The notes below the pieces were generated by a model, which saw only the letters and a program-made list of their open reading frames with translations, made no database searches and was not told the DNA's origin. Position numbers and translations under genes: made by a program. A stretch of DNA of 64,000 bases from an uncultured Ignavibacteriota bacterium (GTDB lineage: Bacteria; Bacteroidota; Ignavibacteria; UBA10030; UBA8401). The stretch is from NCBI GenBank assembly GCA_903884005.1, contig CAISDA010000020.1, positions 124,001-188,000 on the forward strand, given 5' to 3'. Positions within the stretch are counted from its first letter, which is position 1. Every line of letters begins with the position of its first letter. Below, piece by piece: positions 12,033-62,744 of this stretch.

Positions 12033-12449
12033 CTATTCGCTTTGTGAGGCGCTGCTTGAGGCGGCGCTGCTTTTTTCGCCGGGGCTGCTCTTGGCGCTGT
12101 CGCCCGCCGGGCTTTCCGACTTCGTGCTTTCTGATTTCGGGCTTTCCGTTTTCGAATTTTCCGGCGTCGAACTTTCCGACTTCGCATTTTCAGGTTTCGA
12201 GCCTTCGGACTTCACTTGGTCATCCTTCTGGCCGGATGCGCCCGATGGTGAGATCACACTGCCGTTCTTTTTGTAATCGGTCTGATAAAATCCCTTGCCC
12301 TTGAAGATAAAGCCCGACCCGTTGCTGATGATACGCACCAGGTTCGGTGTATGGCATTCCGGACACTCCACGAGCGCGTCGTCCTTCATCGATTGAAAAG
12401 CTTCCATTGTGTGCTTGCACTGCGTGCATCGGTATTCATACGTCGGCAT
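12033..12449 (-). CDS. FmdB-family zinc-ribbon protein with Ser/Lys/Glu-rich low-complexity tail
   Basis: 'MPTYEYRCTQCKHTMEAFQSM...VECPECHT' zinc ribbon; tail 'KSESSTPENSKTESPKSESTKSES'. Confidence 0.88.
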   Translation of the reverse strand: MPTYEYRCTQCKHTMEAFQSMKDDALVECPECHTPNLVRIISNGSGFIFKGKGFYQTDYKKNGSVISPSGASGQKDDQVKSEGSKPENAKSESSTPENSKTESPKSESTKSESPAGDSAKSSPGEKSSAASSSASQSE

Positions 12450-12496: not shown

Positions 12497-12595
12497 ACTG
12501 AAGTAACTCGCAGCAACCCGCACCGCTTCGCTCGAGCATGCGAGATACCATCTCGCCCTACATGCGCACCGATGCAACGGCGGCGGGTTACTTCA
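12497..12595. repeat. Nested inverted repeat (cruciform) at the 3' end of the aspartate aminotransferase gene
   Basis: Outer arms GAAGTAAC(tcgcagc)AACCCGC 12500-12521 versus GCGGGTTACTTC 12583-12594; inner GCATG-CGAGAT-acc-ATCTCG-ccta-CATGC at 12536-12565. Confidence 0.75.
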
Positions 12596-13781
12596 ATTGT
12601 TGAAATCCCTTTTTCATCCGATCCGCCGCTTTCTGTAACTCTTCCATCGAGCATGCGTACGAGAGACGAATATTGTTCTTGGCACCGAACCCGCTGCCCG
12701 GCACAGTCACGACGTTGCACTCTTCGAGCAGGTATTGAGTGACATCGTCGCCGCTCTTGATCTTTTTTCCGTTGAACGATGTGCCGTACAAGCCGCTCAC
12801 ATTCGGGAACAGATAGAACGCTCCCTGCGGCGTCGGGCACGTGACGCCTTCCATGGCCCGGAGTTCGCCGAGCATGTAGTCGCGGCGTTTCTTGAATTCT
12901 GCCGTCATCGCATGCACCTCATCCTCCGGTCCGGCTATGGCCGCCGCCGCCGCGCGCTGCGAGATCGAGCACGGTGCCGAGGTGACCTGGCTTTGCACTT
13001 TATCGGCCGCATCCACGATTGGTTTTGCCGCGGCCATATAGCCGATGCGCCATCCCGTCATCGAATACGCTTTCGATACGCCGTTGATCGTGATGACGAG
13101 GTCTTTGATGGTCGGTATCGACGCGAGGCTGAAATGCCGCGCCCCGTCGTAGATCACCTTTTCGTAAATCTCGTCTGCGATCACATAGATGCCCGTTTTG
13201 CGCACGACCTCGCCGATCGCTTCGAGTTCGCTCTGCGTATAGACCGAGCCGGTCGGATTCGACGGCGAGCAGAGAATGAGCGCCTTGGTTTTTTTCGTGA
13301 TGGCCCGCTGCAATTGTGATGCGGAGATCTTGAAATCGGTGCGTTCGGTCGTCTTGAGGATGACGGGAACGGCGTCGACCAATTTCACGGCTTCCGGATA
13401 ACTCACCCAGTAGGGGGCGGGGATGATCACTTCATCGCCTTTGTTGCAGATCGCCTGCAGAGCGTTGAAGATCGAGTGTTTCGCGCCGTTCGAAACGAGA
13501 ATGTGCGACGGATCGACCGAGATGTTGTTGTCCCGGCGGAGCTTGTCGGCGATCGCCGAGCGCAGTTCAATGATGCCGGCATTCACCGTGTATTTCGTGA
13601 AGTTTTCCTCGATCGCCTGTACGGCCGCCCGCTTGATGTGTGCCGGCGTGGGGAAGTCCGGTTCACCCGCGGTCAGACTGACGACGTCGATGCCGTCGGC
13701 CTTCATTTTTTTTGCAATAGCGGTGAGGGCGAGTGTGAGGGATGCCTCGGCGTTCGCGACTTTTTTCGATAACGATTTCAC
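12588..13781 (-). CDS. aspC: Pyridoxal-phosphate aspartate aminotransferase (class I/II)
   Basis: 'VSLTAGEPDFPTPAHIK', 'NGVSKAYSMTGWRIGYMA' PLP lysine motif. Confidence 0.92.
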   Translation of the reverse strand: MKSLSKKVANAEASLTLALTAIAKKMKADGIDVVSLTAGEPDFPTPAHIKRAAVQAIEENFTKYTVNAGIIELRSAIADKLRRDNNISVDPSHILVSNGAKHSIFNALQAICNKGDEVIIPAPYWVSYPEAVKLVDAVPVILKTTERTDFKISASQLQRAITKKTKALILCSPSNPTGSVYTQSELEAIGEVVRKTGIYVIADEIYEKVIYDGARHFSLASIPTIKDLVITINGVSKAYSMTGWRIGYMAAAKPIVDAADKVQSQVTSAPCSISQRAAAAAIAGPEDEVHAMTAEFKKRRDYMLGELRAMEGVTCPTPQGAFYLFPNVSGLYGTSFNGKKIKSGDDVTQYLLEECNVVTVPGSGFGAKNNIRLSYACSMEELQKAADRMKKGFQQLK

Positions 13782-29093: not shown

Positions 29094-29158
29094 CACCGCC
29101 GGCCGCACGGCACGACCCTCATCCGCACAGTGCGCGCTGGAACGGCGTATTCGAACGT

Positions 29159-29194
29159 ACCATTGTAGGGCGAGATGTCATCTCGCCCTATGGT
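29159..29194. repeat. Perfect palindrome between convergent genes (REP-like or bidirectional terminator)
   Basis: TAGGGCGAGATG-t-CATCTCGCCCTA at 29166-29190, flanked by ACCA (29159) and TGGT (29191), then GTTTTA. Confidence 0.75.
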
Positions 29195-29231
29195 GTTTTA
29201 AATACGGACCGCGAATTCGCAGACGGCATCA

Positions 29232-31838: not shown

Positions 31839-33133
31839 CAATGGACCCGGCCACAACCCCCTTTGCAGAACGGGTCCGTCCTCGGACGCTCCAGGAGTTC
31901 ATCGGACAGCAGCATCTTGTCGGTGAGGGCAAACCGCTTCGCCTCATGGTCGAGTCGGACAGCGTCCGCTCATTCATCCTCTGGGGCCCTCCGGGAGTCG
32001 GCAAGACGACGCTCGCACGCATCATTGCCAACCGGACCCGCTGTGAATTCTTCGCGCTCAACGCCGTCTCGTCGGGCATCAAAGATGTCCGCGAGATCAT
32101 CGCCAAAGCGATCGACTTCCAAAAAACGGGCAAAAAGACGATTCTCTTCATCGACGAAATTCACCGGTTCAACAAGGCGCAGCAGGACGGACTGCTGCAC
32201 AGCGTGGAGAGCGGAGTGCTCACGCTGATCGGCGCCACGACCGAAAATCCCTCGTTCGAAGTGATCTCTCCGCTGCTCTCGCGCATGCGCGTGTACGTGA
32301 TGGAGCCGTTGAACAAAACGGAGTGCGACCAGATGCTCGCGCAGGCGCTCGCAGCCGATCCGGTGATCAACACGTCGACAGTCGACGTGCCGGACCAGGA
32401 TTTCCTTGTCTATCTCTCGGGGGGCGACGGACGCAAACTGCTCAATGGATTGGAGATCGCATTCCAGCTGGCGGCCCCCGATGACCGCGGTCTTCGTGTG
32501 ATCACGAAATCGACGCTCGAAGACGCATTCCAGCGGAAATATTCGCTCTATGATAAAAAAGGCGAACAGCATTACGACATCATTTCGGCATTCATCAAGT
32601 GCATCCGGGGCAGCGATCCCGACGCCGCCGTGTACTGGCTCGCGCGCATGCTCGACGGGGGAGAGGATCCGAAATTCATCGCGCGGCGGCTCATCATTCT
32701 CGCCTCTGAAGACATCGGCAATGCGGACCCGGTCGGATTGATGATCGCCACAGACGGATTCACCGCGGTCGATTATGTCGGCATGCCCGAGGCGCGGATC
32801 ATCCTGGCGAACGTTGCCACGTATCTTGCCTCGGCGCCGAAGAGCAACGCGTCGTATCTGGCAATCGACGCCGCGCTCGAGGACGTGCGGCGCATGCCCA
32901 ATCTGCCGGTGCCGATCCATCTGCGCAACGCGCCCACACAGTTCATGAAGCAGCTCGGGTACGGGGAGCAGTATAAATACGCGCACGACTACCCCAATCA
33001 TTTTGTCGATCAGCAGTACTTGCCCGATGCGCTGAAAGAAAAGATCTATTATCACCCCACGGAAAACGGACGCGAAAAGAGCATCAAGGAGCGGTTGGAA
33101 TTCCTGTGGAAGAAACGAAAACCGAATACATAA
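31835..33133 (+). CDS. rarA: Replication-associated recombination protein A (AAA+)
   Basis: 'PFAERVRPRTLQEFIGQQHLVG', Walker A 'GPPGVGKTTLARI', 'FIDEIHRFNKAQQDGLL'. Confidence 0.95.
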   Translation: MTMDPATTPFAERVRPRTLQEFIGQQHLVGEGKPLRLMVESDSVRSFILWGPPGVGKTTLARIIANRTRCEFFALNAVSSGIKDVREIIAKAIDFQKTGKKTILFIDEIHRFNKAQQDGLLHSVESGVLTLIGATTENPSFEVISPLLSRMRVYVMEPLNKTECDQMLAQALAADPVINTSTVDVPDQDFLVYLSGGDGRKLLNGLEIAFQLAAPDDRGLRVITKSTLEDAFQRKYSLYDKKGEQHYDIISAFIKCIRGSDPDAAVYWLARMLDGGEDPKFIARRLIILASEDIGNADPVGLMIATDGFTAVDYVGMPEARIILANVATYLASAPKSNASYLAIDAALEDVRRMPNLPVPIHLRNAPTQFMKQLGYGEQYKYAHDYPNHFVDQQYLPDALKEKIYYHPTENGREKSIKERLEFLWKKRKPNT

Positions 33134-33172
33134 TCGCCGCGTCTGGACACGCATCGTCTCTCTTCACAAAGG

Positions 33173-36100
33173 TTGTGCGATGAGCAAACCGCGTGTCGCC
33201 GGTGCTTCCAAATTTTTTTTCACCCCGGAGGGGTGACCGTTATTCACGAGCATCCGAAATATTGTGTGTTCTTTCCGTTCGTACGCCGCGCCGCCAGCAT
33301 CGTGAACTGCGCATGGGAGCCTCTGCGCCTTCTTCGCACGATCGCCGTCGGCGTGGCCGCACCACTTGTTATGCACTACTCGGCGCAGGCGCAGGTCGCG
33401 GACTCGCTCCGCGGGCGGGATACCATCTCGCCCTATAATGCCGCTGCGACCGCCGGGAACCAGGGTGCGGACTCTCTCCGCGGGCGGGATACCATCTCGC
33501 CCTATAATGCCGCTGCGACCGCCGGGAACCAGGGTGCGGACTCGCTCCGCGGGCGAACCGCCATCTCGCCCTTTGCTGCCCCTGCAGCGGCAGTGAAGGA
33601 ACTCCCGGACACCCTCGCCATCGCGCGCGCCGATTCAACGAAGAAGCCAGCGAGCGGCATCGATTCATCGGTCGCGTACACGGCGTCGGACTCCATCGTG
33701 TTTTCGTATCCGACGAGGATCATGAAGATGTTCGGCAAATGCGATGTGAAGTACAAGACCATGGCGCTCAACGCCGAACGCATCAATGTCACGTGGAGCG
33801 AGAACAAGCTGGACGCGTACGGCGTGCTCGATTCGTCGCGGGCCGGCAATCCCGATTCGATCAAGCAGCGGTACTCCGGCATGCCCGTGATGGTGGACGG
33901 CAGCGAAAAATACGAAGGCTTCAAGATCGCATACAATTTTAAGACGCAGAAGGGACGCATCACGCTCGGTGAGACCGCGAAAGACCAGGGCTACTACTAC
34001 GGCGAGCACATTAAGAAAATCGAGCCCGACGTTCTCTTCATCGCCGACGGCATGTTCACGACGTGCAGCCTCGGACATCCGCACTATTATTTTTTGAGCC
34101 CCGAAATGCGCGTGACGGTGAAGGACAAGATCGTGGCGCGCCCGATCTATCTCTACATTGCCGACGTTCCTCTGTTCGTGCTGCCCTTCGGCGTCTTCCC
34201 GAGCCAGAGCGGCCGCCGCTCCGGCATCATCGCTCCCGCCTACGGAGACGACGCGCTGCAGGGACGCTACATTTCGCATCTCGGATATTATTTCGCGCTG
34301 AGCGAGTATTACGATCTGGCTCTCTCGGGCGATTGGTATGCAAGCGGCACGTGGCGCGCACGGTCGCACATCCGCTACACGAAGCGGTACGATTTCACCG
34401 GAGACATCAACGTCGAATATTCGCGCACGAAGATCGGCGAGCCGATCGATTACAACCGCCAGGACCAGGAAAATTATTACGGGTCCATTCGCCACAGCGA
34501 AAATTTCGATCCCACAACGCAATTGAACGTGAATTTCACGTTCGCGAGCAACAATTCTTTTCTGGCGACGAACAATTATTCCCGCCGGCTGGAGCAGCAG
34601 ATCTATTCGAATGCGACCTTCACTAAATCGTGGGAGGGCACGAACAATCTGCTGAGCGTCAACATCCAGCGTGTCCAGGATCTGGTGCACGGCTCGATCG
34701 ATGCAACGGTGCCTGTGCTCAGTTTTTCAAATTCGCAGATCTATCCGTTCCGTTCGGCGAAAAAATCGCGCCCCGGCTCCACGGACGGCAATGAATCGAA
34801 ATATTCGTGGCTCGAGATGCTCGGCATCTCCTATAATGGCACGGCCGAACACATCGAGAAAAAAACCAGGACGTCGGACACGGTGGACTTCACGCGCTAC
34901 AGCCGCAGCGGCGTGAATCACAATCTCGGATTTTCCATCGCGCCCAAGGCGGGGTTCTTCACCGTCCAGCCGTCGTTCTCGTACCAGGAGCGCTGGTACG
35001 ATAAGAGCACGACATTCGTCCGCATCGATTCCGCAACACACGCGCCCGTGTTCGAGGACGCCAAAGGCGTAAACGCGCTGCACACATTCAGCACCGGTGT
35101 GTCTGTGTCCACAAAGCTCTACGGCATGCTGCGGTCGCCCATTCCGGGACTCGCCGGGTTCAGGCATACGGTAACGCCGTCCCTCTCGTATTCGTACACG
35201 CCCGATTTTTCGAAACCGTTCTGGAACTATTACGGCACCTACACCGACGCGCAGGGCGTCCAGCAGAAATACAGCCGCTATGCAGGCGAAGTCTTCGGCG
35301 GCGCCCCGGAAGGCGAATCGCAGTCTCTCAGCCTCAGCATCGGCAACCTCTTTGAAACAAAAACGGCGCCGAAAGATACGACCGTGAAGGAACAAAAATA
35401 CCAGTTGCTCAATGTGAACGCGTCTGTTGCGTACAATTTTGCGGCCGAGCAGCAGCGTCTCTCCCCGCTGAGCCTGAGCTATCGGACCAGCATCGGCGAG
35501 ATCCTGAGCCTCAGCGGCGCTGGCACATACAATTTTTACCTGTACGACCAGCCGCTCCGAACGCGCGTGAACCGGTTCCTCATCAACAACGGCGGCGGGC
35601 TGGCGCAGCTGACGAATTTTTATATCAGTCTCTCGACATCGCTCAGAGGCGAAAAAAAGCGCGCGCAGACCACCGAGCAGGTCAGCGACAGTCTCCGCAT
35701 CGACGAAAAACGCCGCTCGCTGCAAAGCGGCTTCCGCACCGTCTATGACGAGGACATTCCCGATTTTTCAATACCGTGGAATCTCGCGGCTACATTCACG
35801 TTCAACCAGTCGCAGGAGGATCCGCAGCAGATCTTCCGCTCCGCCAACCTCGGGCTCAACGGCGGATTCAACCTCACCGAGAATTGGCGCTTCACGGCGT
35901 CGGCCAGTTACGATGTCGTGAGCCGGCAGTTCGCGGCGCCGAGCATCAACATCTATCGCGACCTGCATTGCTGGGAAATGACGTTCAGTTGGCAGCCGAT
36001 GGGCACGATGGCCGGCTACCGCCTGGAGATCCGCGTGAAGGCCCCGCAGCTGCAGGACATCAAGCTCACGAAGCAGTCGCACTCCAGCGGCTATTATTAA
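33173..36100 (+). CDS. lptD: LptD-like LPS assembly outer membrane protein (start uncertain)
   Basis: 'FTTCSLGHPHYYFLSPEMRVTVKDKIVARPIYLYIADVPLFVLPFGVFPSQSGRRSGIIAPAYG', then beta-barrel-like C-terminus. Confidence 0.87.
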   Translation: MCDEQTACRRCFQIFFHPGGVTVIHEHPKYCVFFPFVRRAASIVNCAWEPLRLLRTIAVGVAAPLVMHYSAQAQVADSLRGRDTISPYNAAATAGNQGADSLRGRDTISPYNAAATAGNQGADSLRGRTAISPFAAPAAAVKELPDTLAIARADSTKKPASGIDSSVAYTASDSIVFSYPTRIMKMFGKCDVKYKTMALNAERINVTWSENKLDAYGVLDSSRAGNPDSIKQRYSGMPVMVDGSEKYEGFKIAYNFKTQKGRITLGETAKDQGYYYGEHIKKIEPDVLFIADGMFTTCSLGHPHYYFLSPEMRVTVKDKIVARPIYLYIADVPLFVLPFGVFPSQSGRRSGIIAPAYGDDALQGRYISHLGYYFALSEYYDLALSGDWYASGTWRARSHIRYTKRYDFTGDINVEYSRTKIGEPIDYNRQDQENYYGSIRHSENFDPTTQLNVNFTFASNNSFLATNNYSRRLEQQIYSNATFTKSWEGTNNLLSVNIQRVQDLVHGSIDATVPVLSFSNSQIYPFRSAKKSRPGSTDGNESKYSWLEMLGISYNGTAEHIEKKTRTSDTVDFTRYSRSGVNHNLGFSIAPKAGFFTVQPSFSYQERWYDKSTTFVRIDSATHAPVFEDAKGVNALHTFSTGVSVSTKLYGMLRSPIPGLAGFRHTVTPSLSYSYTPDFSKPFWNYYGTYTDAQGVQQKYSRYAGEVFGGAPEGESQSLSLSIGNLFETKTAPKDTTVKEQKYQLLNVNASVAYNFAAEQQRLSPLSLSYRTSIGEILSLSGAGTYNFYLYDQPLRTRVNRFLINNGGGLAQLTNFYISLSTSLRGEKKRAQTTEQVSDSLRIDEKRRSLQSGFRTVYDEDIPDFSIPWNLAATFTFNQSQEDPQQIFRSANLGLNGGFNLTENWRFTASASYDVVSRQFAAPSINIYRDLHCWEMTFSWQPMGTMAGYRLEIRVKAPQLQDIKLTKQSHSSGYY
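33398..33604 (+). repeat. In-frame tandem repeat, 69-bp period, about 2.5 copies, inside lptD N-terminal region
   Basis: ADSLRGRDTISPYNAAATAGNQG twice, then diverged ADSLRGRTAISPFAAPAAA; copies start at 33398, 33467 and 33536. Confidence 0.95.
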
Positions 36101-62532: not shown

Positions 62533-62744
62533 GACATTCTGAAGGAGCTTGAGCGACTGAAGAATCTTGCCGGCTGCTCACACGATGCAAGATTCTTCGC
62601 TTGCGCTCAGAATGACAGAGTACTGGTGTCGTAGGCATGAAGATTCTTGGCGCAGCCAAGATGAAACCTCAGGATGACAGAGTACTTATGCCATAGAGCA
62701 TGAAGATTCTTGACTCTGTCAAAACGAGAACCTCATGATGACAG
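62533..62744. repeat. Composite intergenic repeat: one inverted and three direct 'AAGATTCTT...GAATGACA' units
   Basis: Inverted copy 62533-62568; direct units starting at 62589, 62640 and 62703, each ending in a GATGACAG-type segment. Confidence 0.8.

Follow-up and report, generated by a model that had tools for sequence, protein, structure and literature searches.

How did a palindrome that is scattered between genes come to be repeated inside the coding sequence of an outer-membrane assembly protein? The question is raised by the lptD-like gene at 33233-36100 (forward strand) of the window, by which we mean the whole stretch of 64,000 nucleotides that was analysed. The reading frame is open from 33173 with a likely GTG start at 33233, and the product of the 33173-36100 frame is matched over its full length by the Pfam family PF19838 (LptD_2, E=1e-113); the gene has orthologues in 59 of 60 relatives. 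As described earlier for the N-terminus of this protein, three units of 69 bp (23 amino acids) stand head to tail at 33398-33604 on the forward strand, in frame and with an exact spacing of 69 nt. These are unit 1 (33398-33466, ADSLRGRDTISPYNAAATAGNQG), unit 2 (33467-33535), which is a near-identical recent duplicate of unit 1 with 96% identity, and the diverged unit 3 (33536-33604) with 75%; the tandem copy number comes from a MAG and could be affected by assembly.

The product has the features of an LptD, namely the LptD_2 domain, a signal peptide and, in the aligned N-termini, the conserved N-terminal domain. The signal peptide was judged by eye: a run of hydrophobic residues closing with SAQAQ immediately precedes unit 1, shares its frame and aligns with the signal peptides of orthologues; the units would therefore lie within the secreted protein if LptD works here as usual, and DTISPYNAAATAGNQGADSLR is the peptide sequence expected from their translation. 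It is highly improbable that the repeats belong to the 5′ untranslated region and have been mistaken for coding sequence, the true start lying further downstream. In-frame GTG codons are present at 33593 and 33698, and most N-terminal REPs in annotated reading frames are artefacts of this kind according to Di Nocera et al. 2013 (PMC3733652), but a downstream start would remove the SAQAQ stretch that aligns with the orthologues, and all three units hold the frame with no stop codon. Structure prediction from 9 sequences gave a mean pLDDT of 39 over the N-terminal 350 residues; over residues 1-144 the confidence is low, which would suit a flexible linker without proving anything. Search for a promoter-like site within 33050-33700 gave none. 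As a separate observation, a hairpin (TCACCCCGGAGGGGTGA) at 33220-33236 overlaps the likely Shine-Dalgarno sequence and the GTG start; it is similar to a different type of short palindrome and could influence how lptD is translated.

The imperfect palindrome reported for the first two units was recovered as GGGCGGGATACCATCTCGCCC at 33413-33433 and 33482-33502, where it can form, in DNA or mRNA, a hairpin of a 9-bp stem and a 3-nt loop (-15 kcal/mol), while unit 3 carries only GGGCGAACCGCCATCTCGCCC (33551-33571) and the stem is no longer formed. The segments attributed to the element are 33413-33451 in unit 1 (the palindrome and 18 nt downstream), 33482-33520 in unit 2 and the degenerate 33551-33586 in unit 3, all on the forward strand. 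Two intergenic relatives that had been placed near 12520-12567 and 29166-29190 are real, with their palindromes at 12538-12558 and 29168-29188. The former lies in a full-length composite element of B type at 12503-12605 on the forward strand (profile E=4e-28), and the latter is a perfect palindrome with a GTAG tag in an element at 29154-29196 on the reverse strand.

The preliminary description had proposed a whole-genome scan for the palindrome and held that finding no further copies would count against its reading. The window contains 10 matches to a degenerate form of the pattern against 0.12 expected from shuffles, and the 4.5-Mb genome contains 190 forward matches and 171 reverse ones when up to 2 mismatches are allowed, where the reversed control gave 0. 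Many sites are counted twice, since the pattern is self-complementary; extrapolation from 40 sites in 864 kb gives about 210 copies, or roughly 200, genome-wide. With the loop (AAC or ACC) used to orient them, 102 copies showed a common 9-bp stem and 3-nt loop, with CTAC (66 copies) or CTGC (19) at one end and GTAG in 0 of 102 at the other, and read on the opposite strand they give GTAGGGCGAGATGKTATCTCGCCC, a GTAG-tagged REP. The tag of the lptD copy itself reads ATAG. Composite forms have recurrent neighbours, GCACCGCTTCGCTCGAGC on the left and TACAATGCTGCGTCTGCGAAAC or TACATGCGCACCGATGCAACGGCAGCGAG on the right. In eight hand-chosen representative forms, which serve as a description and not as a sample statistic, 98.6% of the cells were paired and 4 of the 9 stem pairs were changed on both sides, with none when the partner was slid. 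The dispersed palindrome is thus a GTAG-tagged REP family by its stem-loop, its tag and its high copy number, the superfamily being defined by a palindromic stem-loop of 20-40 bp with a stem of 5-13 bp and a GTAG or GYAG tag at one end only. An Rfam assignment was tried and rejected, the sole hit being a chance match to HgcC, whose 22 bits lie below the cut-off of 50.

The position of the copies relative to genes was surveyed in the 864 kb, in which a simple codon-based caller marked about 92% as coding. Here 37 of 40 copies (up to 2 mismatches) are intergenic or at gene edges, and the remaining three comprise both intact units of lptD and a copy that supplies part of the C-terminal tail of a methylpurine-DNA glycosylase. 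By type of gap, 26 copies are unidirectional, 10 convergent, 1 divergent and 3 inside genes, against 223, 34 and 46 background gaps of the first three types; placement is predominantly extragenic, between unidirectional or convergent genes, and divergent gaps are almost never used. The glycosylase copy (C6:5535, at the locus L164 4926-5594) is read in the same GRDTIS frame as in lptD, and begins at about residue 204 of 222, after the Pfam match has ended at residue 189. No other convincing gene-internal copy was found among 131 sampled sites (up to 4 mismatches, partly overlapping the 864-kb set) nor among 56 copies in the sister genome; within the sample, gene-internal placement is confined to the lptD units. 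Three further candidates were set aside: the tails in L016 and L116 belong to weak ORFs, and an in-gene pair of the sister genome (L219) was left uncounted, as it seemed to lie upstream of a frame that itself scored weakly.

This placement bears upon the likeness to Rickettsia that was drawn in the preliminary description. A protein-coding palindromic family which, like the Rickettsia palindromic elements (RPEs, reviewed in PMC10969869), inserts into genes preferentially or recurrently could point to lptD and the glycosylase tail, both in one frame, but the great excess of intergenic and gene-edge copies in largely coding DNA, and the lack of a convincing internal case in about 130 sampled copies or in the 56 of the sister, make it scarcely credible. 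Palindromic repeats standing in frame within protein genes are what the two have in common. RPEs are about 150 bp long and often in genes, whereas the present element is of about 21-45 bp and almost always intergenic; RPE-4 and RPE-6 carry a CGTC tag, and the copies here GTAG or GCAG (PMC10969869 and PMC3733652); and RPEs enter many unrelated genes in frame again and again, which is not the case here. The closeness of the analogy is not supported, the family avoiding genes and having lptD as its sole internal case in the sample.

How much of the lptD unit belongs to the element was examined next to the dispersed copies. With the 69-bp unit as query, about 40 other places were found, each aligning only at the palindrome and its neighbour (unit positions about 7-53). 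Free local alignment being uninformative, the flanks were compared by a palindrome-anchored, gap-free test against random coding 17-mers: of the 17 nt on the right, 14 agree with another copy (P=5e-5), and the left 17 nt resemble other copies at the level of random coding sequence (P=0.50). The shared sequence is thus the palindrome and about 18 nt downstream. From the 45-bp similarity to 12520-12567 that had been reported, the palindrome and the right side hold and the left side does not; the best partner of the unit is also another copy, the intergenic G000:C46:5132, with 34 of 39 nt identical and no gap. These comparisons bear on the idea that the units are a native linker repeat (ADSL...) which resembles the dispersed palindrome by chance or by convergence. 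The linkers of relatives are rich in DSL and DT and variable in length, and the left half of the unit has no significant similarity to the element, as that idea would have it; but the exact 21-nt core belongs to a genome-wide family, the right flank is matched as well, and 13 residues translate identically in the lptD element and an intergenic copy, so that a native repeat is very unlikely.

The relatives were analysed for the state of lptD outside this genome. The earlier reading would have been contradicted by the same repeats, with divergent DNA, in LptD of distant relatives, and alignment of 22 LptD N-termini showed the 23-aa units in none. Instead, their signal peptide ends in AQ or a similar sequence and is followed by a short linker, rich in DS and DT and differing in length, and then by SGIDSVVTY. 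Between AQ and SGID there are 86 codons here, or 40 after subtraction of two units. The sister has 25, and the difference of 15 codons is close to the size of one element. The sister is the sole congener compared, and its LptD, at 78% identity, is too distant for a clean empty site.

The order of events can be read from the units. Unit 3 reads CGA and GCT GCC, as the intergenic copies do, against CGG and GCC GCT in units 1 and 2; as unit 3 keeps bases that are changed in units 1 and 2, they were not its source. By these bases, unit 3 and the pair descend from an older unit, and units 1 and 2 represent a recent duplication. The direction from element to gene is supported by the ancestral bases of unit 3 together with the absence of the units from orthologues.

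On this evidence the repeats in lptD are best read, with a probability of about 0.83, as one GTAG-tagged REP copy that entered in frame and was followed by tandem duplications, which upholds in outline the earlier proposal of insertion and in-frame duplication. One element, with its 9-bp stem, its loop of 3 nt and GTAG at one of its ends, would have entered the low-complexity linker that joins the signal peptide of LptD to its LptA-like domain, with a net gain of about 15 codons and a left boundary that is not placeable. The insert would have been tolerated because the element has no stop codon in this frame (GRDTISPYNAA...) and because linker length differs from one relative to another, and it was perhaps near neutral. 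A 69-bp stretch of element and linker would then have been tandemly duplicated, probably by slippage or unequal recombination; the copies would have diverged into unit 3 and the ancestor of units 1 and 2, and this ancestor would have been duplicated again recently. Two separate insertions instead of a single one with duplications are a less probable alternative.

Whether the insert has become useful is a further question. All five differences between lptD and G000:C46:5132 over 39 nt are synonymous third-position transitions which leave GRDTISPYNAAAT unaltered, an outcome with P of about 0.002 if five transitions fell at random, though for a comparator picked as the best match and for 5 changes only. 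Two of them, CGA to CGG and TAC to TAT, are derived relative to nearly the whole family, and the other three are polarised by one or two subtype copies only. The five changes would fit a long residence in a translated gene, in small numbers. It is possible, with a low probability, that the selfish REP is now a maintained protein module, in which purifying selection acts on GRDTISPYNAAAT and the units are being multiplied to serve as a periplasmic spacer. More broadly, selection may keep and multiply the units for a useful peptide or hairpin, as a periplasmic spacer or in mRNA control, for example; this is suggested by the synonymous pattern, the amplification and the intact 9-bp hairpins of units 1 and 2, but the sequence of unit 3 is altered at the amino-acid level with loss of its hairpin, and all aligned relatives do without the units, so we regard it as unlikely. 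The term "exapted" in the preliminary description implied a benefit to LptD that is without support in this analysis.

Insertion followed by duplication finds its better comparison in the intragenic GTAG REPs of PMC3733652. In-frame REP insertions are rare but already described for other bacteria, and that survey describes REPs within genes, including in-frame ones at the N- or C-terminus, clusters reiterated along with flanking DNA, and REPs between unidirectional or convergent genes. The likeness extends to the short palindrome and loop, the GTAG at one end only, the hundreds of copies, the sub-families with compensatory stem changes, the prevailing gap types and the occasional copies that stand in frame within genes, in some cases at the N- or C-terminus. 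The present case differs in its host, a Bacteroidota-like MAG, for which the survey reported CGTC and not GTAG repeats; in having no RAYT gene found; in an intragenic copy tandemly duplicated with gene sequence as a 69-bp unit; and in its target, lptD not being among those named in the text consulted.

A Y1/RAYT transposase (PF01797) gave no match in this genome or in the sister, which is 71% complete, and the same search was positive in most relatives and in 5 control genomes. One to nine Y1 transposases occur in most of the relatives that are without the palindrome family. Loss of the transposase after spread of the REPs would explain its absence, and PMC3733652 suggests such loss for species lacking REPtrons. 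The gene that marks RAYT-mobilised REPs (REPtron or REPIN) was thus not detected alongside this family. Like REPINs and BIMEs it has some copies in close pairs, although in this genome these are mostly in the same orientation; in a relative (G015) copies form GTAG...CTAC dimers, and one of these (L065 1497-1545, GTAGGGCGAGATTCCATCTCGCCCAGTCGAATTGGAAATTCGACCTAC) has two different hairpins with GTAG tags outward and is REPIN-like.

These data document a route from an intergenic hairpin repeat to a tandem protein repeat in an outer-membrane assembly protein gene, with dispersed source copies, orthologues that are without the units and an order of events. They also add a GTAG REP family outside the phyla covered in the 2013 survey, and two congeneric genomes without detectable RAYT bear on how REPs spread or persist in its absence. 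In the sister genome the REPs use other stems (GGGCGAAAT, GGGCGAAAC and GGGCGAGCT) and, in 51 of 56 copies, carry the same tag at one end and not at the other. Upstream of the sister lptD (L030 1199-1320) there is an inverted pair of GTAG REPs with a GGGGCGTAT palindrome, preceded by a ROK-type kinase gene; the window has no such gene between rarA/mgsA and lptD. The window also contains two other tandem repeats, one of 62 bp in 2.2 copies at 62606-62744 and one of 15 bp in 6.9 copies with 70% match at 12111-12213.
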